Assembly: GCF_022095675.1 (NCBI RefSeq)
Contig: NZ_JAHYSG010000019.1
Span: 62,001 to 126,000 of the forward strand
Reading direction: 5' to 3'
DNA from: Dactylosporangium sp. AC04546
GTDB taxonomy: Bacteria > Actinomycetota > Actinomycetes > Mycobacteriales > Micromonosporaceae
DNA: 64,000 nt
Shown: piece after piece, positions 27,287 to 39,635 of the stretch
How the letters are laid out: the number at the start of each line of letters is the position of its first letter
Numbering within the stretch: position 1 is the stretch's first letter
Notes under the pieces: generated by a model
Told to the model about the DNA's origin: nothing
The model's input: only the letters and a program-made list of their open reading frames with translations
The model's database searches: none
Made by a program: the position numbers and the translations under genes

Positions 27287-28315
27287 TCACACCTCCGACA
27301 GCTTGCCGTAGCGGACGACCGCGACGAAGGCGGGCGCCCCGAGCACCCCGAGCACCACGCCGACCTGGAGCTCGTCGGGCGCGGCGACCACGCGGCCGAC
27401 CACGTCGCACAGCAGCAGCACGATCGGCGCGAGGAGCATGGAGTACGGCAGGATCCACCGGTAGTCGGGGCCGCAGATGAAGCGGGCGAGGTGCGGCACG
27501 ACAAGGCCCACGAAGACGATCGGCCCGCAGGCGGCGGTGGCCGCCCCGGCGAGGATCGCCACGACGACGAACGCGGCCGCGCGGGTGCGGCCGACCCGCT
27601 GGCCGAGCCCGCGGGCGACATCCTCGCCGAGCGCGAGCCCGTTGAGGGCGCGGCCGAAGCCGAGCGACGCGAGCAGCGCGACGACGAGGAACGGGGCGAC
27701 GCCGGTGAGCACCGGCGCGTACCGGCCGGCGAGCGAGCCGACCTGCCAGAACCGCAGCTCGTTGAGCGCGTTGATGTTGGTCATCACGATGCCGGTGGTG
27801 ACCGAGGTCAGCCCGGCGGTGACGGCGGCGCCCGCGAGCGCCAGCTTGACCGGCGTGGCCCCCTCACGGCCCAGCGACGCGATCGCGTAGACGAGCACCG
27901 TCGCCAGGATGGCGCCGGTGAACGCGAACCAGATCGACACGCCGACGCCGTGCACGCCGAGGACGGTGACGGCGAACACGACCAGGACGGCCGCGCCGGC
28001 GTTGATGCCCATGATGCCCGTGTCGGCGAGCGGGTTGCGCGTGACGCCCTGCAGGATGGCGCCCGCGACGCCGAGGGCGGCGCCGACCAGGATGCCGAGC
28101 AGGGTGCGCGGGACGCGCAGCTCCAGCGTGACGGTGCTGTTGATGGAGCCGTCGTCGTCCATGCCGGTCAGGGCGTGCATGACCTCGGACAGGCTGATGT
28201 CGCGGGAGCCCTGGGTGACGCTGAGGAACGCGACGACGGCGAGCACGGCACACAGCACGGCGAGGCCCGGCCCGAGGGTCGCGCCTCGCCGCACCGATTG
28301 GGCGGTCCGGTTCAT
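27287..28315 (-). CDS. FecCD-family siderophore permease (first subunit)
   Basis: 342 residues with ten predicted membrane helices. E-L-R-V-P-R-T-L-L-G-I-L-V-G, then G-A-I-L-Q-G-V-T-R-N-P-L-A-D-T-G-I-M-G, and G-P-I-V-F-V-G-L-V-V-P-H-L-A-R are standard FecC/FepD signatures. The ATG shares a base with the lipoprotein stop (TGATG), so the two are translationally coupled. Confidence 0.92.
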   Translation of the reverse strand: MNRTAQSVRRGATLGPGLAVLCAVLAVVAFLSVTQGSRDISLSEVMHALTGMDDDGSINSTVTLELRVPRTLLGILVGAALGVAGAILQGVTRNPLADTGIMGINAGAAVLVVFAVTVLGVHGVGVSIWFAFTGAILATVLVYAIASLGREGATPVKLALAGAAVTAGLTSVTTGIVMTNINALNELRFWQVGSLAGRYAPVLTGVAPFLVVALLASLGFGRALNGLALGEDVARGLGQRVGRTRAAAFVVVAILAGAATAACGPIVFVGLVVPHLARFICGPDYRWILPYSMLLAPIVLLLCDVVGRVVAAPDELQVGVVLGVLGAPAFVAVVRYGKLSEV

Positions 28316-29319
28316 CAGTTCCCGATGTTGGGGTCGGCGCTCTTCACGGCCTCGGTGAGCTTGTCCAGCTCGGTCGCGAAGTGGCCGTAGGTGTGCAGCC
28401 AGTACGCCGGCCAGGCGACGACCGCGCCGGCCTTGGCCGCCTTGATCTTGAACCAGGTGGGCTGCTTCTGGCCCCACTCGGCGTTGGCCGAGGCGGTGTA
28501 GGAGCGGCCGTCCCACAGGATCAGGTCGGGCTGGTACTTGTCGGCGTTCTCCCAGCTGAGGTTCTCCCAGTACGGGAACGCGGGGTCCGGGCTGTCCGGG
28601 TTGATCACTTTGAGGCCCCAGCGCTGGAAGTCGAGCAGCTCCGGCGCGTACTCCGGGTTGGCGAAGTACACCTTGTCGTCGGCCGGCGACATCGCGCCGA
28701 CGGTGAGGCCGGGCTTGGCCGCGACGGCCTCCTTGAACTTGGCGAGGGACTGTTCGAAGCGCTGCTTGTTGGCCGCGATCTTCGGGTCGTCGACCTTGGC
28801 GCCGAGGCTCTCGGCGAGGTCCTCGTAACCCTCGGCGAGCTCGAGGATCGACTTGCCCTGGCTGATGCCGACGATCGGGGCCAGGTCCTTGAGCTTCTTG
28901 CTCTTCTCGTCGACGCCCTCCTCGAGGCCGCTGTTGGCCTTCTCGGCCGGCCACCAGTCGGCGACGATGAGGTCGGGCCGCAGCGAGGCGGCCTTCTCGA
29001 CGTCGATCTTGCCCCACTCCTCACCGAGGATCTCGATGCCGCTGAGGTCGAGGTCCTTGAGGTTGGAGTCGGTCTTGACCGACTCGTCGGCGTAGATGCC
29101 GACCGGCTTGATCCCGAAGGACATCAGGGCGGCCGCCTCGCCGGCGTGGGCGATGATCCGGGTGGGGACCTTGTCGGCGGTGACGACCTTGCCCGACCCG
29201 TCGGTGAACTTCCAGGGGCCGGACGCGCTCGGGCCGGACGAGGGCGAATCCTCGGAACCACATCCGGCGAGGACGGCACTGAGGGCCGCAACGGCGACGA
29301 TCGAACGCCAGGCACGCAT
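28315..29319 (-). CDS. Iron-siderophore binding lipoprotein (FecB type)
   Basis: 334 residues. The lipobox L-A-G-C-G is at residues 17-21. The body is a class III periplasmic-binding fold: V-P-T-R-I-I-A-H-A-G-E-A-A-A-L, W-G-K-I-D-V-E-K-A-A-S-L-R-P-D-L-I-V-A-D, a long inter-domain helix, and Y-Q-P-D-L-I-L-W-D-G-R. It captures the ferric chelate outside the cell and hands it to the FecCD permeases. First gene of the operon, with a DtxR/IdeR-type box 36-54 bp upstream, so expression should rise in iron starvation. Confidence 0.92.
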   Translation of the reverse strand: MRAWRSIVAVAALSAVLAGCGSEDSPSSGPSASGPWKFTDGSGKVVTADKVPTRIIAHAGEAAALMSFGIKPVGIYADESVKTDSNLKDLDLSGIEILGEEWGKIDVEKAASLRPDLIVADWWPAEKANSGLEEGVDEKSKKLKDLAPIVGISQGKSILELAEGYEDLAESLGAKVDDPKIAANKQRFEQSLAKFKEAVAAKPGLTVGAMSPADDKVYFANPEYAPELLDFQRWGLKVINPDSPDPAFPYWENLSWENADKYQPDLILWDGRSYTASANAEWGQKQPTWFKIKAAKAGAVVAWPAYWLHTYGHFATELDKLTEAVKSADPNIGN

Positions 29320-29373: not shown

Positions 29374-29562
29374 CACCTCCCCGGTTGGTCAACATTCGAG
29401 ACCAAACGGTGACCTGACGGGCGGTACAGTGCGGATGGCTGTCCGGGCAGCCTCCGGTCCGCGGAAATGGGCACAGCCCACCCAGTGCGTGACGAACCTG
29501 AGGCCTCACCCTCCTTTCGGCCTGACCCAGCGGACAGCAGGCGCGAACGAGAGGAGGCCCCT

Positions 29563-31035
29563 GTGCCTGACTTCCGGAGAGCCGCCCGAGCCCTGCAGCG
29601 CGCGGTGCGCGCCGGCGATCCCGACGCGATCGCCCGGGTCGCCACCCGCCACCCCGCCGGCGCGCCGGCCGACCCGGCCGGGTTCGCGCTCACGGCCGCG
29701 CAGCTCGTCGTGGCCCGCGAGCAGGGCTTCGCGAGCTGGCCGCGGCTGCGGCGATACCTCGACACGGTCGCCTCGCACGGCTGGGACAGCCGGACCGCGG
29801 CGTCGCCCGCCGCCCATCCCGCGGACGAGTTCTGCCGGCTGGCCTGCCTGACGTACACCCGCGACGACGGTCCCGACCGCTGGAGCGCCGCCGGCGGCAT
29901 GGTGACCGCCGAGCACATCTGGGCGGCGTCGGCCGCCGGCCGTCCGGACGACGTCTGGCGGCTGCTCGCCCGCGACCCCGGCCTGGCGGGGGCACGCGGC
30001 GGGCCGTTCGGGTGGCGGCCGCTGCTGTACCTCACGTACTCGCGCGTCGACCCGGCCCCGGCCGAGGCGGACGCGCTCGCCGTCGCCCGGCAGCTCCTCG
30101 CCGCCGGCGCCGACCCGAACGAGGGCCACCTCTTCGACGGGCTGACGTACCCGTTCACCGCCCTGACCGGCGTGCTCGGCAACGGCGAGCTGGGCGCGGC
30201 GCGCCAGCCCCGGCACCCGTACTGGCACTCGCTGGCCGGCCTGCTGCTGCGCGCGGGCGCCGACCCGAACGACGCGCAGGGCCTCTACAACACCATGTTC
30301 CTGCCCACGACCGACCACCTGGAGCTGCTCTTCGCCCACGGCCTGGGCACGGCTGGCCGCGGCCCCTGGCGCTCCCGGGTCGGCGAGGCGATCCCCCCGC
30401 CGGACGAGCTGCTGCGCACCCAGCTCCGCTGGGCGGTCGAGCACGACCAGCACGCGAAGGTGCGCCTCCTAGCCTCGCACGGCGTCGACGTCCGGTCGCC
30501 GTTCACGGCCGCCGGCCCGGCCTGGGCACCCGGCGACGGCCGGACCCCGCTCGAGCTGGCCCGGCTGTACGGCCACACGGAGATCGCGGAGCTCCTGGTC
30601 GAGCACGGCGCGCCCGCTCCACCACCGGACCCGGTCCAGAACCTGATCGCGGCCGCCTTCCGCGCGGACCGCCCGGCGGTGCAGGCGCTGCGCGCCGAGC
30701 ACCCGGACGTCGTCACCCGCGCCCACGCGGCCCGCCCGGGCCTGGTCGTCTGGGCCGCGGCCCACTCGTCGGTATCCACTGTGGACCTCCTGGTCGAGCT
30801 GGGCTTCGACGTCAACGCCCTGGGCCGCGCGGACGCCCCGGTCGAGGAGCCTTGGGAGACGGCCCTGCACCACGCCGCGGGCGCGGGCGACGTCTCGCTG
30901 ACCCGCCACCTGCTGGCGCTGGGCGCCGACCCGCAGGCCCGCGACCGCCGCTTCGCCGCCACGCCGCTGGACTGGGCCCGCCACCTGGGCCGCCCCGCGA
31001 CCGCCGCCGTCCTGGAGGAGGCAACGCAGCGGTGA
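29563..31035 (+). CDS. Ankyrin-repeat protein
   Basis: 490 residues. At least five ankyrin repeats are recognisable by L-L-x-A-G-A-D-P-N type turns: L-L-A-A-G-A-D-P-N-E, L-L-R-A-G-A-D-P-N-D, L-A-S-H-G-V-D-V-R, then R-T-P-L-E-L-A-R-L-Y-G-H and A-L-H-H-A-A-G-A-G-D. The GTG at 29563 has GAGGAGG upstream. No signal peptide or membrane helix is seen, so it is a cytosolic protein-binding scaffold. Partner unknown; it is divergent from the siderophore operon. Confidence 0.85.
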   Translation: MPDFRRAARALQRAVRAGDPDAIARVATRHPAGAPADPAGFALTAAQLVVAREQGFASWPRLRRYLDTVASHGWDSRTAASPAAHPADEFCRLACLTYTRDDGPDRWSAAGGMVTAEHIWAASAAGRPDDVWRLLARDPGLAGARGGPFGWRPLLYLTYSRVDPAPAEADALAVARQLLAAGADPNEGHLFDGLTYPFTALTGVLGNGELGAARQPRHPYWHSLAGLLLRAGADPNDAQGLYNTMFLPTTDHLELLFAHGLGTAGRGPWRSRVGEAIPPPDELLRTQLRWAVEHDQHAKVRLLASHGVDVRSPFTAAGPAWAPGDGRTPLELARLYGHTEIAELLVEHGAPAPPPDPVQNLIAAAFRADRPAVQALRAEHPDVVTRAHAARPGLVVWAAAHSSVSTVDLLVELGFDVNALGRADAPVEEPWETALHHAAGAGDVSLTRHLLALGADPQARDRRFAATPLDWARHLGRPATAAVLEEATQR

Positions 31036-31295
31036 TCCACCGCAGCGCGGCGGCCGCGCCGTGTGTTCCCGGGGCGACCTCGTCCCGCAGCTCGTCGACG
31101 CGGCCGTGCCGGGCCAGGAGGTCGACCAGCCGGCGCCTCGGTGGCGCGACCCCGCCCGACCAGCCGGTCGGCCAGGGCCGCGGCCATCTCGGTGCTGTCG
31201 TTCGAGGAGGTGCGGGAGCGGCGGCGGGACGCCTCCAGCGCCTCGTCCAGGACGTTCGGCCACTGCTGGTCCCGGCCCGCGTGCCACAGGGCCAT
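31036..31295 (-). pseudogene. TPR-like protein remnant with frameshift
   Basis: On the minus strand two frames together give one protein-like sequence. One frame (31295 to about 31138) has M-A-L-W-H-A-G-R-D-Q-Q-W-P-N-V-L-D-E-A-L and M-A-A-A-L-A-D-R-L-V-G-R-G-R-A-T-E. The second continues with L-V-D-L-L-A-R-H-G-R-V-D-E-L-R-D-E-V-A-P-G. The last motif is the same repeat type as in the gene at 45496. No intact frame exists, and the 3' end runs into the ankyrin gene. The remaining 31296-31540 gap holds only a candidate promoter (TTGCCC 31485, TACCCG 31509) for the next gene. Confidence 0.45.
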
Positions 31296-31540
31296 ACCCT
31301 CGTCGGGCCGGGCCCTCGGCGATCACCCTCATGTCCACCGGCGGAACTGCTCACCCATCACCGGGCGAAACGCTCGAAGGCCTCGATCCGCCTCGGGTCG
31401 ATGGTGCGGTGGACGACGCAGGTGATCACGCTCCCACCCTGGGACCCCGGACTGTCGGCAGGCGGTCACTGTCCACATTGGGTATTGCCCGGCGATCTCC
31501 CGGTGTGCTACCCGTATGGCACACAAATCGGGGGATGGAA

Positions 31541-33046
31541 ATGGATCTTGGTGAGCTCACACCGGAGCTGACCGGCACAGCCGTGTGGTCCGACGGCATG
31601 GTGGCCGCGGCCGGCATTCCGGTGCACGACGTGCCGTTCGTGACCGTCGGCGGCGGGATCGGCTCGTTCGTGACCGTCGACTACCTGCGGATCGCGGGCG
31701 TGCCGCCCGAACAGATCCGGGTCTTGTCCAACATCGACCATCCGTGGCAGACGTACCAGTACCTCACCCGGGTCTCGCAGATCCCCGAGCCGGAGCGGAT
31801 CCGCTCGGACTCGTCGTCGCGGCCCGACAACATCTGGGGCTTCCCGTCCTACGCGCTGGCCGAGGCCTGGCGGGACCGCACCCTGCGGCCGCTGGTGCAC
31901 GTGCTCGGCGAGCCGGTCTTCGCCGACTACTGGACCCCGCGGGCCGGTGACGTCTTCGCCGGGCTGCGGCGGGAGTCCGAGCGGATCGGGTACGACGCGA
32001 TGGTCGCCAAGGGCGTCGTGCGCATGGTGCGCAAGCGCGACCAGGGCGGGTACTTCACGGTGCTCACCCCGCCGGACGGCGCCACGAAGCGGGTCGCCTA
32101 CCGGTCACGGTTCGTGCACCTCGCCGTCGGCTACCCGGGGCTCAGGTTCCTCCCCGACCTCCAGAAGTTCCGCGAGGAGCACGGCGACTTCGAGCACGTG
32201 GTGAACGCCTACGAGCCGCACGAGCACGTCTACGAGTTCCTCAAGACGCGGCCGGGCACGGTGCTGGTGCGCGGCGGCGGGATCGTCGCCTCCCGGGTAC
32301 TGCAGCGGCTCATGGACGACCGCGCGAAACACGGGCTGCAGACGCAGATCGAGCACCTGTTCCGCACGTACGTCACCGGCGCGCACGGCCCGCACTGGTG
32401 GGCCCGGCGCAAGGGCGGCGACGGCTTCGCCTACCAGGGCTTCAACTACCCGAAGTCGGTGTGGGGCGGGCAGCTCAAGGCCCGCATGCGCCGCCTGGAG
32501 GGCGAGGAGCGGGCCGCCGCCTACAAGGGCATGGGCGGCACCAACACGCCGAAGCGCCGGCGCTGGCAGCGGCAGATGCGGGAGGGCCGGACCGCCGGCT
32601 GGTACCGCGCAGCGCAGGGCACCGTCGAGAAGGTCTGGCCCGACACCGACGGCACGCTGGTCAGCGTCGTCGCCGGCGAGCAGGGCTTCCGGGAGATCCG
32701 GGCCGACTACATCATCGACTGCACCGGCCTGGAGGCCGACATCGCCGAGCACCGCGTGCTCGCCGACCTCCTGGCGCACGGCGGCGCCGGGCGCAACCCG
32801 CTGGGCCGGCTCGACGTCGAGCGGCACTTCGAGGTGCGCGGCACCGCCAGCGGCGACGGCGCGCTCTACGCCTCCGGCACGACCACGCTCGGCGGCTACT
32901 TCCCCGGTGTCGACACGTTCCTGGGCCTGCAGATCGCCGCCCAGGAGATCGCCGACGACCTCGCCCGGCGCGGCTGGTGCCCGCGCCTCGGGCCGATCCG
33001 CTCCACGGTGCAGTGGTGGCGCTGGGCGCTCGGCCGCTCGATCTGA
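31541..33046 (+). CDS. FAD/NAD(P)-binding oxidoreductase, first gene of the kinase/antiporter operon
   Basis: 501 residues. A Rossmann dinucleotide loop V-T-V-G-G-G-I-G-S-F near residues 32-41 is followed by I-W-G-F-P-S-Y-A-L, a second glycine loop T-V-L-V-R-G-G-G-I-V-A-S near residue 245, and near the end Y-I-I-D-C-T-G-L-E plus L-Y-A-S-G-T-T-T-L-G-G-Y-F, as in two-dinucleotide flavoproteins. No known substrate signature is recognised. Start chosen at 31541, six bases after GGGGATGG; the ATG at 31535 is an alternative. It is 16 bp upstream of a membrane-protein gene and heads a six-gene run with kinases and an antiporter, suggesting redox input or output in that system. Confidence 0.8.
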   Translation: MDLGELTPELTGTAVWSDGMVAAAGIPVHDVPFVTVGGGIGSFVTVDYLRIAGVPPEQIRVLSNIDHPWQTYQYLTRVSQIPEPERIRSDSSSRPDNIWGFPSYALAEAWRDRTLRPLVHVLGEPVFADYWTPRAGDVFAGLRRESERIGYDAMVAKGVVRMVRKRDQGGYFTVLTPPDGATKRVAYRSRFVHLAVGYPGLRFLPDLQKFREEHGDFEHVVNAYEPHEHVYEFLKTRPGTVLVRGGGIVASRVLQRLMDDRAKHGLQTQIEHLFRTYVTGAHGPHWWARRKGGDGFAYQGFNYPKSVWGGQLKARMRRLEGEERAAAYKGMGGTNTPKRRRWQRQMREGRTAGWYRAAQGTVEKVWPDTDGTLVSVVAGEQGFREIRADYIIDCTGLEADIAEHRVLADLLAHGGAGRNPLGRLDVERHFEVRGTASGDGALYASGTTTLGGYFPGVDTFLGLQIAAQEIADDLARRGWCPRLGPIRSTVQWWRWALGRSI

Positions 33047-33062
33047 GACGGAGAACTCAACA

Positions 33063-33500
33063 ATGGTGCCCATCCTGTCGGGTCGCCTCCAGACCCGCAT
33101 CTTCCTGCTCGCCGTCGTCGGCTCGGCCGTCACGGCGCTCATCGTCCCCCTGCTGCCGGGCGGCGGGCCGCTGTCCGAGCGGTACCGCACGGCGTTCCTC
33201 GTGCTCGCCGCCGTCGCCGTGCTCGGCATCGGCTGGGAGCTGCTCTACCACTTCCTCATGCAGTTCCGCTGGGAGAAGGACTGGCCGTCGCTGTTCGGCC
33301 TGCTGACCGGCGTGCCGGAGGCCGTGGTGCTGTGGCTGCTGCTGCGCGCCGGCGCTGTGCCGGGGGTCGCCGCCGTGCCGCCGCTGACGGCGTTCGTCAT
33401 CCAGTTCGCGGCGGTGTGGCTCGCCGTCTGGCTGGTCGCCAACGGTCCGATGCGGGTGCCGTTCCTGCGGTGGCGGTTCCGGGGCGGGCGGTTGACGTGA
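33063..33500 (+). CDS. Four-helix membrane protein of the kinase/antiporter operon
   Basis: 145 residues with four predicted membrane helices and a conserved-looking central loop (E-L-L-Y-H-F-L-M-Q-F-R-W-E-K-D-W-P-S). The C-terminus is basic. No family is recognised. GGAG precedes the ATG, and its stop overlaps the FHA gene start (GTGA), so it is tightly coupled to the signalling genes. It might be a membrane anchor or channel regulator; this is inference from context. Confidence 0.7.
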   Translation: MVPILSGRLQTRIFLLAVVGSAVTALIVPLLPGGGPLSERYRTAFLVLAAVAVLGIGWELLYHFLMQFRWEKDWPSLFGLLTGVPEAVVLWLLLRAGAVPGVAAVPPLTAFVIQFAAVWLAVWLVANGPMRVPFLRWRFRGGRLT

Positions 33501-34513
33501 CGGATCCGACGGTACTGCCGATGCCCGGTGCCGGACTGGTCACCCGGGCAGGCGCCCTGCTCGCGGTCGCCGAGCCGGCCGGCGCCGAGGAGCTGCTGAC
33601 CCTCGTGCGGCGGATCGCGGCCGACGGCGGCGACGGGCCCGACCTGGTCCGCCGGGTCGCCGAGCTGTTCCCAGCCGGCGAGCTCAGCTGCGCGGTGGCC
33701 GGCCCGACCGCCGACGGCGACCTCGCGGTCCTCGTCTGCGGTCACGCCACCGCGGAGGTCGACGGCCGCCACGAGCAGGTCCGCCTCACCGGCCCGGGTC
33801 CCGCCACGCGCGTGGTCGCCGGACCCGTCGCGGCGGTACGGCTGACGCTGCCCGGGGCCGGCGCGCCCCATCCGCTCGCCCGGCTCGACGGCGGGGTCGT
33901 CGGCGGCGCCGGGCTGAGCGCGCGCTTCCACACCGAACCGGCGCCGCCGCCGAAGGAGCCGGCCCCTCCGTTCGAGGCGGTGCTGCTCGTGCCGGGCTAC
34001 GCGCCGCCGCTGGCGCCGGTCGAGCCGGTCGCCGACACGGAGGTGCTCGTCGAGGGGGTCGACTGCAAGAACGGCCACTTCAACGACCCGGCCCTGCGGT
34101 ACTGCCAACGCTGCGGCATCGCCATGCACCAGCTGACGCTCGTGAGCCGGCTCGGGCCCCGCCCGCCGCTCGGCGTGCTGCTGCTCGACAACGGCATGAC
34201 GCTGCGGGCCGACGCCGACTACGTCGTCGGCCGGGACCCGGCCCGCGACCCCGACGTGGCCGCCGGCCGGGCCCGCCCGCTGCGCATCGCCGACTCCTAC
34301 GGCGGCATCTCCCGCCGGCACCTGCGCGTCAAGCTGTCCGGCTGGACCGTGCGCGTCGTCGACCTCGGCTCGGCCAACGGCACCTACGTCCAGGGCCCCG
34401 GTGCCGACGAGGCGCCGCGCGTCCCGGCCGGCGGGGCCGTCGAGGTCCGGCCCGGCGCAAAGATCATCTTCGGCCGCCGGTGGCTGCGCTACGAGTCGCA
34501 CCGCAATCCGTGA
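33497..34513 (+). CDS. Zinc-ribbon/FHA phosphopeptide-binding protein
   Basis: 338 residues in three parts. The N-terminal 150 residues have a PP2C-like alternation of strands, though without a full set of metal-binding aspartates. Then comes a zinc-ribbon-like C-K-N-G-H-F-N-D-P and Y-C-Q-R-C-G near residues 190-210. The C-terminal FHA domain has Y-V-V-G-R-D-P near residue 240, G-G-I-S-R-R-H-L-R-V and V-V-D-L-G-S-A-N-G-T-Y-V. FHA domains bind phosphothreonine, so this protein is the expected reader of the two Ser/Thr kinases encoded next. Both its ends overlap neighbouring genes by 4 bp. Confidence 0.85.
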   Translation: MTDPTVLPMPGAGLVTRAGALLAVAEPAGAEELLTLVRRIAADGGDGPDLVRRVAELFPAGELSCAVAGPTADGDLAVLVCGHATAEVDGRHEQVRLTGPGPATRVVAGPVAAVRLTLPGAGAPHPLARLDGGVVGGAGLSARFHTEPAPPPKEPAPPFEAVLLVPGYAPPLAPVEPVADTEVLVEGVDCKNGHFNDPALRYCQRCGIAMHQLTLVSRLGPRPPLGVLLLDNGMTLRADADYVVGRDPARDPDVAAGRARPLRIADSYGGISRRHLRVKLSGWTVRVVDLGSANGTYVQGPGADEAPRVPAGGAVEVRPGAKIIFGRRWLRYESHRNP

Positions 34514-35325
34514 GCGAAAGAGGTCAGTCCGCCGTGCAGGGAATCGCCGACTACGAGTTCATCCGGCCGCTGGGCGCCGGCAACCACGGCCAGTTCTACC
34601 TCGCCCGCCGCCCGGCCCGGCTGCCGGTCGACGTGGAGCTCGTCGCCGTCAAGGTGCTGTCCGCCGAGTCGAGCGACGCCGCGTTCCGCCGGGCCGTGCG
34701 GGAGCTGACCGCGTTCAGCGCGGTGGCGTCGCCGTACCTCGTCAGCCCGTTCGACGCCGGCCAGCAGGACGGCACGTTCTACTACTCGATGGAGTACCTG
34801 CCGGACGGCTCGCTCGCGAACCCGGCCGCGCCGCTCTCCCCCGCCGCCGCGCTGCGGGCCGTGGCCGACGCCGCCCGCGCGGTCGCCGACCTGCACGCCG
34901 CCGGCATCGTCCACCGCGACGTCAAGCCGGGCAACGTGCTGCTGCACCCGGGCGGCGGGAAGTTGTCCGACCTCGGCCTGGCCCAGGTCTTCACCGAGGG
35001 CGTGACGATCACCGGCATGGGCCCGCTCGACACGGTCGAGTACGTCGACCCGGCGGTGCTCATGGGCGGCCGGCCGGTGCCCGCCGCCGACGTGTGGTCG
35101 CTCGGCGTGCTGCTGCACCGGGTGGCCGGCGGCAGCAGCGTGTACGGCGACCTGCCGGACGGCGACGGCCTGCTCGCGCTGCGCCGGGTCCTCGCGGCCA
35201 CGCCACAGGTCAGCGGCGCGCTACCCGAACCGGTGGCCGGCATCGTCCGCGCCTGCCTCGGCCCGGCCGGCGAACGGCCGTCCGCCGCGGCGGTCGCCGC
35301 GCTGCTGTCTGAGACCGCTCGATGA
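34510..35325 (+). CDS. Soluble Ser/Thr protein kinase with DLG motif
   Basis: 271 residues, one kinase domain and little else. Glycine loop G-A-G-N-H-G-Q-F-Y-L-A, Lys in V-A-V-K-V-L, catalytic loop H-R-D-V-K-P-G-N-V-L, D-L-G in place of DFG, and an activation segment ending Y-V-D-P-A-V-L in place of the usual A-P-E. The peptide-binding lobe keeps D-V-W-S-L-G. It lacks a transmembrane helix, so unlike the second kinase it is cytosolic. Start and stop overlap the FHA and antiporter genes by 4 bp each, implying stoichiometric production. Confidence 0.87.
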   Translation: MSERGQSAVQGIADYEFIRPLGAGNHGQFYLARRPARLPVDVELVAVKVLSAESSDAAFRRAVRELTAFSAVASPYLVSPFDAGQQDGTFYYSMEYLPDGSLANPAAPLSPAAALRAVADAARAVADLHAAGIVHRDVKPGNVLLHPGGGKLSDLGLAQVFTEGVTITGMGPLDTVEYVDPAVLMGGRPVPAADVWSLGVLLHRVAGGSSVYGDLPDGDGLLALRRVLAATPQVSGALPEPVAGIVRACLGPAGERPSAAAVAALLSETAR

Positions 35326-37262
35326 GCGCGCACGCCGTCGGGCAGCTGATGCTCGGCCTCGCCAGCATCATCGTGCTGGCCCGGGTGCTCGGCCTGGCCG
35401 CCCGCAAGCTCGGCCAGCCGCCGGTCATCGGCGAGATCCTGGCCGGCATCCTGATGGGCCCCACGCTGTTCGGCGCCGCGGTCAGCGGCTGGCTGTTCCC
35501 CACCGAGGTGCGCACGGCCCTGGCCGGCCTGGCCAACGTCGGTCTGGTGCTGTTCATGTTCATCGTCGGCTACGAGGTGGACCTGGCCGCCGTGCGCGGC
35601 CGGCGCCGGGCCGCGGTGTCGGTCTCGGTCGGCTCCGTCGTGCTGCCGCTCGGCCTGGGCACCGGGCTCGCCTTCTGGCTGGCCGGCCACCACGACGTCA
35701 CCGACGTGGCGCCGTTCGCGCTGTTCATGGGCGCGGCGATGTCCGTGACCGCGTTCCCGGTGCTGGCCCGCATCCTCGCCGACCGGGGCATGCTGCGCAC
35801 CGAGGTCGGCGGGCTCGCGCTGGCCAGCGGCGCCGTCGACGACGTCGTCGCGTGGACCCTGCTCGCGGGCGTCGTCGCACTCGGCGCCGGCGGTGGGGAG
35901 GTGCCCTGGCAGGTGCTGCTCGCCCTGCCGTACGTGCTGGTGATGTTCCTGGTCGTCCGCCCGCTGCTGCGGCGGCTCGTCGCCGCCCGCGAGCGGGCCG
36001 GCCGGCTCACCCCCGACATCCTCGCCGTGATCCTCATCGGGCTGCTGCTGTCGTGCTGGTTCACCGAGGCCATCGGCGTCCACGCCATCTTCGGCGCATT
36101 CCTGTTCGGCGCCGTCATGCCCCGGCTCGGCGGCGAGGCGCTGCGCCACGAGACCCTCGAACGGCTGGAGCAGCTCAGCGTCCTCGTCCTGCTCCCGGTG
36201 TTCTTCGTCATCGCCGGCCTGCGCGTCGACCTGTCCACAGTGGATGGCCGTGGGCTGATCGACCTCGCGCTCATCCTGGCCGTCGCGATCACCGGCAAGT
36301 TCCTCGGCGCCTACGCCGGCGCGCGGCTCAACCGGATCGACGCCCGCCGCTCCGGCGCCCTCGCGACGCTGATGAACACGCGGGGCCTGACCGAGATCGT
36401 GATCCTCACCGTCGGCCTGCAACTGGGCATCCTGCCCGCCGACCTGTTCTCGCTGATGGTGGTGATGGCGCTGGTCACCACGGCGATGGCCGGCCCGCTG
36501 CTCGCGGTCGTCTATCCGCGGCGGATGGTCGAGCAGGATGCCGCCGACCTGCGGAAGGCGGCGCTCGGTGTACCGGAGGCATACCGCGTCCTCGTCGTCG
36601 TCCCGCCCGGGGCGGCGGCGGCACCCGTCGTCGAGCTGGCCACCGACCTCGCCGTGCGGCGCGAGCCGGCCGAGGTGCTGCTGAGCCGCGTCGTGCCCTA
36701 CGAGCAGTCGCGCATCGAGGTCGGCTCCGGCCTGTCCGGCGACCTGCTCGCGATGACCGCATCGATGGCCGAGCTGCACCGGCTGGCCGGGCCGGTCCGC
36801 GAGCGGGGGCCGGCGGCGCCGGTGTTCGCCCGGTTCAGCGCCGACCCGGCGGCCGAGGTCCGGGCCCAGATCGACGTCGCCCGCCCCGACACGGTCGTGC
36901 TCGGCGGCGACCACCCCGAGCTGGCCGGCGCCGGTCCCCGGCTGGTGACGGTGATCGCGCCGCCGCCGGCCGGCTGGGACACGGTCGTGGTCCGGGCCGG
37001 CGACGACGCCGACGGCGAGGCCGCGGTGCGGGTCGGCGCCGACCTGGCGGCCGCCCGCGACGCGGTCCTGGTGGTCGACGCCGGCCCGCGCCCGCCGCGC
37101 CGTATTGTCACGGTGCTCGACGAGCTCGGCTGGGCCGGCGCCGCCGGCCGGGCCGCTCCGCCGTCGGCGCTCGTCGTCGCCACCGGCCCGGCGGCGGGCG
37201 CGCATCTGCTCGTGCGGGCCCGGACCGAGGCACCGGCCGCGCCTGTACCGGCCCCGGCGTGA
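35322..37262 (+). CDS. CPA2/Kef-type cation:proton antiporter with cytosolic USP-like tail
   Basis: 646 residues. The first about 410 form a Na+/H+-exchanger domain of 12 helices with G-Q-P-P-V-I-G-E-I-L-A-G-I, M-S-V-T-A-F-P-V-L-A-R-I-L and D-D-V-V-A-W (the ion-binding aspartates of CPA2). N-T-R-G-L-T-E-I-V-I-L follows near the end. The last 220 residues resemble two degraded universal-stress-protein-like lobes (R-V-L-V-V-V-P-P-G, V-V-L-G-G-D-H-P-E) that could bind nucleotides or be phosphorylated. It exchanges K+ or Na+ for protons. Its kinase neighbours suggest phosphorylation-controlled gating, which is inference. Confidence 0.9.
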   Translation: MSAHAVGQLMLGLASIIVLARVLGLAARKLGQPPVIGEILAGILMGPTLFGAAVSGWLFPTEVRTALAGLANVGLVLFMFIVGYEVDLAAVRGRRRAAVSVSVGSVVLPLGLGTGLAFWLAGHHDVTDVAPFALFMGAAMSVTAFPVLARILADRGMLRTEVGGLALASGAVDDVVAWTLLAGVVALGAGGGEVPWQVLLALPYVLVMFLVVRPLLRRLVAARERAGRLTPDILAVILIGLLLSCWFTEAIGVHAIFGAFLFGAVMPRLGGEALRHETLERLEQLSVLVLLPVFFVIAGLRVDLSTVDGRGLIDLALILAVAITGKFLGAYAGARLNRIDARRSGALATLMNTRGLTEIVILTVGLQLGILPADLFSLMVVMALVTTAMAGPLLAVVYPRRMVEQDAADLRKAALGVPEAYRVLVVVPPGAAAAPVVELATDLAVRREPAEVLLSRVVPYEQSRIEVGSGLSGDLLAMTASMAELHRLAGPVRERGPAAPVFARFSADPAAEVRAQIDVARPDTVVLGGDHPELAGAGPRLVTVIAPPPAGWDTVVVRAGDDADGEAAVRVGADLAAARDAVLVVDAGPRPPRRIVTVLDELGWAGAAGRAAPPSALVVATGPAAGAHLLVRARTEAPAAPVPAPA

Positions 37263-37278
37263 CCTGGAAAGGACGACG

Positions 37279-39108
37279 ATGACCGGCAACCACGCGCCGT
37301 TGCGCGACGGGGATCCGCGGCGGCTCGGCCGGTACACCGTGGTCGGGCGCCTCGGCGAGGGCGGCATGGGCACCGTGTACCTCGCCACCGCCCCCGACGG
37401 CGTGCCGGTCGCCGTCAAGGTGGTGCGCACCGACCTGGCACACGACGAGCAGTTCCGCCGCCGGTTCCGCAGCGAGGTCAACCGGGCCCGGCAGGTGCCG
37501 CCGTTCTGCACCGCGGAGGTGCTCGACGCCGCCCCCGACGACGAGCGGCCCTACCTCGTCGTCGAGTACGTCGACGGGCCGAGCCTGGCCGCCGTGGTCC
37601 GCGACCGGGGGCCGCTGTCCCAGGCGAACCTGCACGGGCTGGCGATCGGCGTCGCGACCGCGCTCACCGCGATCCACGGCGCCGGCGTGGTCCACCGCGA
37701 CCTGAAGCCCAACAACGTGCTGCTCGCCGCGGGCAGCCCGAAGGTCATCGACTTCGGCATCGCGCACTCGCCGCAGGCCACCACCGGGCACACCCGGACC
37801 GACCAGGTGGTCGGCACGGTGGCCTACATGGCTCCGGAGCGGTTCGGGCCGGAGTCGAGCGGCAGCACCACGCCGGCCGCGGACATCTTCTCGTGGGGTG
37901 CGGTCATCGCGTACGCCGGCACCGGGCGCAACCCGTTCGGCTCCGACGCGGCGCCGGTGGTCGCGGCGCGGATCCTGACCCAGCCGCCGGACCTGTCCGG
38001 GCTGTCCGGGCCGCTGCGGGAGCTTGTGGCGCAGGCGCTCGCCAAGGATCCTGCCGAGCGGCCGACGGCTCGGGAGCTCGTCGATCGGCTCCTGACGGCC
38101 GGGCCCGCGCAGTCGGCGCTCGCGCGGCAGCCCGATCTGCTGGCGGCGGTCGAGGAGGTCCAGGCGACGGACGTGGCTCCGGCGCTGGACCCGGTTGCCG
38201 CGCCGGGCGTTGGTGCGGCTGGACTTTCGGCGGACGCGGGCGCCGCGGCTGGGCTCGCCCCCGATGCCACGACCCGGCTGGACGACTCGGCATTGCCGCA
38301 CGTGCTGGCGGCCTCCGCTCCCGTGCCCGCTCCCATACCCGTCTCGGCCGCGACGGTCGCCGCGCCGCTTCCCCCGTCGTCGGGGCGGTTCGGGCGGATC
38401 ACGCTCGCCGTCGTCGCGGTCGTCGCGCTGCTGACGTCGCTGGCGGTGGCGGGCCTGATGTACGGCATCATCCCCCTGCCGGATCGTGGCCCCCAGGCCC
38501 AGGCCTCCAGCGCGCCCGCCACGTCCGGCGCCGCGTCACCGTCGGGCGCCGCCGACCGGGTGCTGTTCACCGACCGGCTGACGAGCGAGCAGCTCTGGCA
38601 GCCCCGCGACGACAAGGAGAACGACGCGACCTGCGCGTTCCAGAACGCGCTCGTCGTCACCCGGCAGAGTGTCGGCTCGTACCGCTGCCCGGGCCCGCGC
38701 AACGAGGTGGCCGACTTCGCCATGACCGTCGACGTGCGGCTGCAGACCGCCGCCAGCTGCGCCGCGATCTGGTTCCGCTTCGACACCGGCGGCTACGTGC
38801 TGCGGGTCTGCGCCGACGGCTACCACGTGGCCACCCACGGCGTCGGCGGCCCGGCGGCGGTCACGACGGTGGAGGACTATCCGTTCGCCGCCCCGCTCGC
38901 GGTCCAGGCGGTCGCGAAGGTCGGCATCGAGGCGCGGGGCGCCGACATGACCTTCACCCGCGACGGGCAGCCGCTGGGCACCTATCACGACCCGACGTTC
39001 GACCGCGGCCGGGTCGTCATCGGCATCTTCCCCGACCCGAAGACGACGGCCGCCCCGCCGTTCTCGGTGGCGTTCACGAACATCGAGGTCCGCGTCCCCT
39101 CGGCATGA
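37279..39108 (+). CDS. Receptor-type Ser/Thr protein kinase with extracellular sensor domain
   Basis: 609 residues. Cytosolic PknB-type kinase (16-275): L-G-E-G-G-M-G-T-V-Y-L, V-A-V-K-V-V, H-R-D-L-K-P-N-N-V-L, D-F-G-I-A, G-T-V-A-Y-M-A-P-E. A 100-residue Ala/Pro-rich linker leads to one membrane helix near residues 375-398, then a Ser/Ala linker and an extracellular beta-sandwich-like domain (about 430-609). That domain has four cysteines (A-T-C-A-F, Y-R-C-P-G, A-S-C-A-A, R-V-C-A-D-G) and a lectin/DUF1080-like pattern. It would sense a ligand outside and phosphorylate Thr residues inside, with the FHA protein as reader. 16 bp after the antiporter, with GGAAAGGA upstream. Confidence 0.92.
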   Translation: MTGNHAPLRDGDPRRLGRYTVVGRLGEGGMGTVYLATAPDGVPVAVKVVRTDLAHDEQFRRRFRSEVNRARQVPPFCTAEVLDAAPDDERPYLVVEYVDGPSLAAVVRDRGPLSQANLHGLAIGVATALTAIHGAGVVHRDLKPNNVLLAAGSPKVIDFGIAHSPQATTGHTRTDQVVGTVAYMAPERFGPESSGSTTPAADIFSWGAVIAYAGTGRNPFGSDAAPVVAARILTQPPDLSGLSGPLRELVAQALAKDPAERPTARELVDRLLTAGPAQSALARQPDLLAAVEEVQATDVAPALDPVAAPGVGAAGLSADAGAAAGLAPDATTRLDDSALPHVLAASAPVPAPIPVSAATVAAPLPPSSGRFGRITLAVVAVVALLTSLAVAGLMYGIIPLPDRGPQAQASSAPATSGAASPSGAADRVLFTDRLTSEQLWQPRDDKENDATCAFQNALVVTRQSVGSYRCPGPRNEVADFAMTVDVRLQTAASCAAIWFRFDTGGYVLRVCADGYHVATHGVGGPAAVTTVEDYPFAAPLAVQAVAKVGIEARGADMTFTRDGQPLGTYHDPTFDRGRVVIGIFPDPKTTAAPPFSVAFTNIEVRVPSA

Positions 39109-39122
39109 GGGGACGCGGCCTC
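39085..39122. terminator. Strong terminator closing the kinase/antiporter operon
   Basis: A 12-bp perfect stem (39090-39101 with 39107-39118, 5-base loop GGCAT) is extended by GAGG/CCTC with one bulged base. It overlaps the last codons and the stop of the kinase and lies 6 bp before the end of the convergent DUF1269 gene, so it may serve both. Confidence 0.8.
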
Positions 39123-39128
39123 GTGCCG

Positions 39129-39635
39129 TCACGCGTGGGCCATGTGCTGGGCCTCGATCGCGGCGCGCAGCCGCTGCTCCGCGTCCATGTTCAGCGAGCT
39201 GTGCAGGAGCCGCCCGCCGAAGTTGTGCGGCGCCATCTCCGCCATCACCTTGTCGACCGTCACCTGGTCGACGAGCAGGAACATGGCCGCCGTCCCGGGC
39301 TCGAGCGACTGGGCGAGGTCCTTCATGAACTTGTCGTCGACCCCGACGTCCGTGGCCTTCCCGGCGAGCGCGCCGGCTCCCGCGCCGATCGCCATGCCGA
39401 GGAACGGGGCGAAGAACAGCAACCCGATGAGTCCACCCCAGAGCGCCCCACCGGCCGCACCCATGCCCGCCATGGAGCTGGACTGGTGCAGCTTGATCTT
39501 GCCGTCGGTGCCGACGTCGACGACCGCGGCATCCCGCACCGAGATGAGGCCCTGCCGCTGCAGGTCCATAATCTTGTCCCGCGCCGCGTTGGCGGTGGAC
39601 AGGTCGCGGTAGCCGATCGCAACGAGCTCAGTCAT
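39129..39635 (-). CDS. DUF1269 membrane-associated stress protein
   Basis: 168 residues. It has the DUF1269 pattern: an N-terminal M-x-E-L-V-A-I-G-Y, A-A-V-V-D-V-G-T-D-G-K-I-K-L-H-Q, and a Gly/Ala-rich membrane hairpin (G-A-A-G-G-A-L-W-G-G-L-I-G-L-L-F, A-I-G-A-G-A-G-A-L-A-G). The end is L-R-A-A-I-E-A. The glycine zipper probably inserts into or lies on the membrane. Family function is unknown; such genes are often stress-induced. The 209 bp upstream (39636-39844) hold no gene. Confidence 0.8.
   Translation of the reverse strand: MTELVAIGYRDLSTANAARDKIMDLQRQGLISVRDAAVVDVGTDGKIKLHQSSSMAGMGAAGGALWGGLIGLLFFAPFLGMAIGAGAGALAGKATDVGVDDKFMKDLAQSLEPGTAAMFLLVDQVTVDKVMAEMAPHNFGGRLLHSSLNMDAEQRLRAAIEAQHMAHA

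Follow-up and report, generated by a model that had tools for sequence, protein, structure and literature searches.

A conserved actinobacterial locus encoding a flavoprotein, a small membrane protein and a zinc-ribbon FHA protein, with an associated kinase and antiporter

A stretch of 64,000 nucleotides from Dactylosporangium sp. AC04546 (contig NZ_JAHYSG010000019.1, positions 62,001 to 126,000), termed the window and numbered from its first letter, carries an operon of six plus-strand genes at 31541–39108. These are called A to F here, and encode a flavoprotein, a small membrane protein, a zinc-ribbon/FHA protein, a soluble Ser/Thr kinase, a cation/proton antiporter and a receptor kinase. 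Judged from gene content and gene order in related genomes, the operon is not a chance cluster, and the real unit differs from the six genes originally proposed. Across the loci compared, A and B form the core; C joins them in most loci and E in more than half. In the family of the window, which we take to be the Micromonosporaceae, A–B–C–D–E is the unit and F is an add-on. The locus is real and conserved, and it is a variant of kinase–FHA signalling rather than a separate kind of system.

Organization of the operon

A first-pass annotation, made from the sequence letters alone, described six same-strand genes joined by overlaps or short gaps. The genes lie where it placed them. Direct reading of the sequence gave the coordinates and junctions: a 16-bp gap separates A from B, B/C and C/D overlap at GTGA, D/E overlap at ATGA, and a second 16-bp gap lies between E and F. 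The six genes are as follows.

31541–33046, plus strand: A, flavoprotein with GGGIGS and GGGIVASR motifs and a predicted fold like that of flavin monooxygenases (FMO)/N-hydroxylases
33063–33500, plus strand: B, membrane protein of 145 amino acids with about four transmembrane segments by hydropathy; GRxQTR, RWEKDWP, NGPxR and RWRFxGGR are conserved
33497–34513, plus strand: C, with an N-domain (residues 1–143), a short linker, a CX3H...CX2C zinc ribbon (C190–C206) and an FHA domain (222–338)
34510–35325, plus strand: D, soluble Ser/Thr kinase with VAVK, HRD and DLG, and DP in place of APE
35322–37262, plus strand: E, CPA2-type cation/proton antiporter with a NapA-like core, AVDD and a variable C-terminal tail
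37279–39108, plus strand: F, AfsK/PknB-like kinase domain, transmembrane segment and extracellular four-Cys domain; a family-specific addition

Conservation of the locus

Loci with A number 59, consisting of the window, seven from genome contigs or plasmids and 51 from whole genomes; L039 and L044 were excluded as duplicates. A small B-type gene directly follows A on the same strand in 54 of them. The other five are L089, whose B forms one protein with the zinc-ribbon/FHA part, L046 and L156, which are at a contig end, L099, where A was missed by the gene caller and a B-like protein is present, and L091, which is without B. The remaining genes were counted within 9 kb of A in the 50 loci that have at least 5 kb downstream, with profiles built from the A loci themselves and thresholds of 60, 250, 300 and 600 bits for C, D, E and F. 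C is near A in 45 of the 50 loci, D in 30, E in 30, D and E together in 27, and F in 11. Loci without C are L047, which has A–B alone, L146 and L148, which are extra copies in genomes that hold another A, and L091 and L099. E is on the opposite strand in eight loci, with the neighbourhood kept. Of the loci with F, ten belong to the window's family and the eleventh comes from an Actinoplanes of the same family.

The first-pass annotation raised the question of whether the six-gene order is conserved in other actinobacteria. The neighbourhood is conserved, in several families; the six genes as a unit are rejected, given the count for F and the abundance of F-like kinases elsewhere.

At the genome level, with the window's own genome counted, A at E ≤ 1e-30 is carried by 16 of 150 family genomes; the figures are 4 of 7 for the genus, 24 of 394 for the class and 12 of 396 for the phylum. 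The distribution of A is thus patchy, and its sequence is strongly conserved. D-type kinases at E ≤ 1e-50 are present in 11 of the 150 family genomes, always on the contig of A and within about 4 kb of it, and none was found at that threshold in the 134 family genomes without A. First-look candidates for D and F numbered 20–116 per genome among those listed, and the best 17 (D) and 8 (F) per genome were scored. Within the family as sampled, the lineage of kinase D is tied to the A locus. Matches to C above 180 bits occur in 11 genomes besides that of the window, all with A. E behaves similarly, with matches above 600 bits in 11 genomes, ten of them at the A locus. The exception, G018 (L158:1933–5442), has an antiporter reading frame that is short of about 125 N-terminal residues and adjoins an F-type kinase; A, C and D were not found in this genome, and the pair is probably the remnant of a decayed operon. 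F-like kinases at 1e-60 are present in 92 of the 150 family genomes, including near full-length copies away from A. It is the co-occurrence of D, C and E with A, together with the frequency of F-like kinases elsewhere, that defines the five-gene unit and sets F apart.

The flavoprotein and the membrane protein

A, B and the N-domain of C each have no Pfam match at E ≤ 1 and no NCBIfam match at E ≤ 0.1; for A this includes the FMO and N-hydroxylase family models. A does contain GGGIGS and GGGIVASR, which we take to be dinucleotide-binding motifs, and its structure model (pLDDT 72, pTM 0.69) has a two-dinucleotide flavoprotein fold. Foldseek places N-hydroxylases (SidA) at the top and VIA places YpdA at the top. 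Several flavoprotein families score alike, and therefore only the superfamily is safe. Placed by motif and predicted fold, A is an unclassified FAD/NAD(P)H-type flavoprotein; the first-pass label of flavoprotein holds at that level and is not matched by a Pfam or NCBIfam family. Among the matches listed, A is 10–18% identical to SidA, KtzI and NbtG, which are N-hydroxylating/class B flavin monooxygenases, and to YpdA/Bdr, a bacillithiol disulfide reductase. It differs from these in having no Pfam match, and its conserved segment 276–317 is modelled at low confidence. A sequence search for solved relatives gave a single chain up to E 1, at 0.67.

A protein search in which 8000 candidates were scored gave 2227 relatives of A at E ≤ 0.001, and the best 120 of these are 71–97% identical to A. 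The closest by identity are Dactylosporangium records (94 and 85%). Mean column identity is 67% over 32 chosen sequences, taken from the best relatives and three loci. Two of the homologues listed (P0088 and P0101) are extended at the N terminus by a tail in which D[RK]T motifs were seen by eye; this tail is missing from the window's A.

In B, residues G7, R8, W70, D73, P75, G142 and R143 are kept in 54 of 54 sequences. The conserved charged segments border the transmembrane segments and would be cytoplasmic, provided that the positive-inside rule holds. A di-haem protein is not favoured, as there is a single near-invariant His (H63, 52/54).

B is also found fused to other domains. A B profile and a zinc-ribbon/FHA profile together place B and a zinc-ribbon/FHA-like domain in one protein in 58 of 62 proteins retrieved, the query's cluster included; since a fusion of this kind served as the query, the count demonstrates existence and not frequency. 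In three of the 62 (P0299, P0300 and P0301), a B-type domain is joined to a sortase-like domain (PF04203). Because B–zinc-ribbon/FHA fusions exist, B and C probably work together.

The zinc-ribbon FHA protein

The FHA domain of C (PF00498) scores 36.3 bits against a cut-off of 20.7. The FHA fold is present in the structure model of C (pLDDT 88.9, pTM 0.48), where residues 222–338 are the FHA domain by structure match. In 34 chosen C proteins the zinc ligands and FHA residues R246, S272, H275 and S292 are invariant, and N294 is kept in at least 90%. The conserved FHA residues are presumably those of the phosphate-binding pocket, and C is presumed to bind phospho-threonine through this pocket. 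The FHA domain dominates the structure matches of C; in one of the two listings few matches extend N-terminal of residue 220, and none extends N-terminal of residue 173. By eye, the N-domain may be PP2C-like.

C-like FHA proteins (37–38% identity) are found in a different cluster, in L105 and L106, with a kinase and a very long protein. C is thus part of a wider family. The L106 cluster also has a PP2C-like phosphatase, as judged by eye. In two loci of one genus, a glutamate-dehydrogenase-like gene was seen by eye directly 3′ of the FHA gene (L092:8099–9388 and L096:9634–10923). GarA-type FHA proteins act on glutamate metabolism.

The kinases and the antiporter

Both D (100.5 bits) and F (151.1 bits) score well above the protein kinase cut-off of 31.7 (PF00069) and, with the VAVK Lys, HRD Asp and DxG Asp in place, qualify as Hanks-type Ser/Thr kinases. 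D reads KLSDLGLA, with DPAV where APE is expected, in agreement with the original description of a soluble kinase with DLG and no APE; its catalytic residues are intact in the window. F is a receptor kinase with an extracellular four-Cys domain, as was also described, and the four Cys residues are kept in 9 of 9 aligned homologues. A part of F that includes the extracellular domain has a weak best match among PDB sequences (E 0.095).

E scores 186.6 bits on Na_H_Exchanger (PF00999; cut-off 26.2), which places it in the CPA antiporter superfamily, and residues 11–391 match 4bwz, 5bz2 and 5bz3, PDB entries titled Na(+)/H(+) antiporter, which we take to be NapA. E resembles NapA-type (CPA2) Na+/H+ antiporters in this core and in the AVDD motif; a long variable C-terminal tail distinguishes it from them. 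Of 32 homologues, 28 retain the second Asp of AVDD and 14 the first, and lengths range from 420 to 917 amino acids. Two narrower labels of the first-pass annotation are rejected. Kef-type K+ antiporters have a TrkA_N/RCK (KTN) cytoplasmic domain; a Pfam scan of E at E ≤ 1 gave no TrkA_N/RCK family, and E scores 145.7 bits on TIGR00932, below the cut-off of 238.3. The tail had been called USP-like, and Pfam Usp (PF00582) reaches 12.3 bits against a cut-off of 24.

A possible phospho-threonine relay

The co-inheritance of these genes is read from the genomes; the chemistry that we infer is as follows. The reading that we favour, tentatively, is that the operon encodes a self-contained phospho-threonine relay with two targets, a flavoenzyme at the membrane and an ion antiporter. 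B would anchor A and C to the membrane. D, plus F where present, would phosphorylate acidic-Thr sites, both in C's linker and in partner proteins, and the FHA domain of C would then bind phosphorylated sites, either its own or those of a partner. Such binding might assemble or release an A–B complex and set antiporter activity, and NAD(P)H/redox chemistry at A would thereby be tied to cation/proton balance via E. The scheme is drawn by analogy with FhaA–MviN and GarA/OdhI–PknG, where recruitment is to a kinase-phosphorylated partner. Its redox link is drawn from the predicted flavoprotein fold and the motifs of A. A bolder version is judged unlikely in full. It holds that A–B–C is an undescribed actinobacterial module in which a zinc-ribbon FHA adaptor and a dedicated kinase wire a membrane-anchored, new-family flavoenzyme to a cation/proton antiporter, with one phospho-threonine relay setting both NAD(P)H/flavin state and ion homeostasis.

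Phosphorylation might fall on the linker of C and, in some relatives, on the N-terminal tails of A. The linkers compared, taken as the sequence N-terminal of the zinc ribbon, come from the 33 C homologues, out of 51, in which a pattern search found the zinc motif. An acidic residue lies no more than three positions before 67 of 134 Thr residues, compared with 52.5 (standard deviation 5.2) in shuffles, and 12 of 2000 shuffles reach 67, a significance that is overstated with related sequences and with stretches of fixed extent, some of which may overlap the N-domain. A Ser control shows no excess (40 versus 44.4 shuffled). Hydrophobic residues are in excess at the +1, +2 and +3 positions (45, 48 and 45 versus 32, 31 and 31) and not at +4 (28 versus 30). 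At least one acidic-Thr site is present in 28 of the 33 linkers, and the window's own C has one, in VADTEVL. Repeated motifs occur as well, [ED]TVDL in L081 and TQLP/TMLP in the family designated f92. The acidic-Thr excess is suggestive as a clue to phospho-sites.

Two elements of the scheme in the first-pass annotation do not carry over. An extracellular cue acting through F cannot be the general input, because F is local to a minority of loci and F-like kinases are common elsewhere. Phosphorylation of the antiporter tail is unlikely as a general output, since the length of E is highly variable.

Several points, the limit on the linker test among them, weigh against the relay. The sample of loci holds near-relatives and multiple copies per genome. 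Five of the 16 family genomes with A have no D match at 1e-50 (G009, G019, G041, G081 and G113), and weaker C-like FHA matches (58–103 bits) are also present in family genomes without A. In f92 (L141, L143–L145, L147, L149, L157 and the contig-end L156), neither D nor E turned up near A–B–C; the kinase and the antiporter are thus not obligatory. Among 30 homologues of D, the HRD Asp is replaced in five (D 25, E 3, N 1, H 1), and the Lys two residues after it is kept in 22 and replaced in eight, so that some relatives of D may be inactive. Finally, a precomputed Pfam FHA match is present in one of the 62 proteins retrieved with the fusion query (P0302, which has no B part), and phospho-threonine binding may therefore be lost in the fusions.

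The near-invariance of A–B leaves room for this pair as the core function. It is conceivable, though rather less probable than not, that A–B is a membrane-bound monooxygenase or reductase acting on a small molecule, that C–D (and F) tune it, and that the transporter moves a substrate, a product or a counter-ion. A–B is the sole near-invariant pair, and the predicted fold of A is FMO/N-hydroxylase-like. Other carriers stand beside these genes where E is absent: by eye, L097 and L098 encode a TauE/SafE-like protein between B and D, and L141 has a SulP-like carrier near A–B–C, a position that similarly sized genes occupy in other f92 loci. L153 and L155 have A–B–C paralogues with a B-like segment inside C (by eye). 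In L153, three methyltransferase-like genes follow A–B–C, and L155 has genes of similar size; these loci may be part of a biosynthetic cluster. A belongs to no Pfam or NCBIfam enzyme family, however, and the commonest carrier is E, with its ion antiporter core.

Perhaps the genes are merely co-transcribed, as a general envelope or stress operon in which kinases, antiporter and flavoprotein act independently. The abundance of F-like kinases away from A would fit, as would the reversed E genes and the loci with A–B alone (L047, L146 and L148). This reading is considered improbable, in that direct interaction is suggested by the B–FHA fusions and by D, which within the sampled family occurs exclusively with A. 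A defence or conflict system, which the patchy distribution of A and PADLOC kinase models such as PD-T4-6 and MAD6 (matched by D and F, best 25 of 34 rows each) might suggest, is highly improbable and not favoured, as the PADLOC matches are confined to the kinases, A, B, C and E matching no PADLOC family at E ≤ 0.01 and so supplying no non-kinase component, and neither a nuclease gene nor a mobile-element gene is among the six.

Operon ends and neighbouring genes

Two further features are located at the ends of the operon.

31503–31524, plus strand: perfect inverted repeat GTGTGC-N10-GCACAC, 16 nt 5′ of the start of A; candidate operator/promoter element
39084–39123, plus strand: GC-rich hairpin without a T-run, overlapping the last codons of F and ahead of a convergent neighbour

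The inverted repeat is unique in its own genome with up to three mismatches allowed, does not occur in 100 shuffles of the window, and is found at the equivalent position in the two nearest relatives. It is a possible operator. The hairpin has a folding energy of -39.4 kcal/mol (z -3.87 versus shuffles), and is as strong as the first-pass annotation had it. A scan for T-run terminators on the plus strand from 31000 to 39500 gave no site, and the equivalent region is no better than shuffles in L075 (z -0.46) and only weakly better in L076 (z -1.66). The proposed role in ending the operon, as a conserved terminator, is not supported.

Just 5′ of A, on the same strand, is a gene for an ankyrin-like-repeat protein (29467–31035, by eye). 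A relative in L044/L075 is on the opposite strand and several genes off. Further upstream, a siderophore-type ABC binding protein is encoded on the minus strand (28315–29319) with an adjoining FecCD-like permease, also by eye.

Relation to known systems

In the mycobacterial PknB–MviN–FhaA system, a kinase phosphorylates a domain of a membrane protein, the FHA protein is recruited, and a membrane process is regulated (PMC12599244, PMC11898655). The present locus shares with it a Ser/Thr kinase, a membrane protein and an FHA protein, and differs in that no flavoprotein, B-type protein or antiporter appears in that system as described there (PMC12599244, PMC11898655). C is also unlike FhaB/FipA, scoring 26.6 on NF049868 (cut-off 125). 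The GarA/OdhI FHA proteins and the PknG/PknB kinases offer another FHA protein–kinase partnership, described in a source that cites a paper on an intramolecular switch (PMC8546545). C differs from GarA/OdhI in its additional N-domain and zinc ribbon, in its score of 21.6 on NF041660 (cut-off 200), and in the absence of the ETTS motif from the window's C, as read by eye. A literature search, with subscription papers mostly beyond its reach, gave no description of the A–F gene set, in keeping with the first-pass statement that no named system of this exact composition was known to its author.

From its gene content, the locus looks like a built-in switch that joins cell chemistry to salt and acidity balance. 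A and B, conserved proteins outside the Pfam and NCBIfam models, and the likewise unmatched N-domain of C are part of its interest. Large actinobacteria have many Ser/Thr kinases, most of them without a known substrate. Here one kinase lineage is, within the sampled family, confined to a single locus, where an adaptor, a flavoenzyme and a transporter accompany it. With such companions, its substrates may be guessed and the guesses directly tested.

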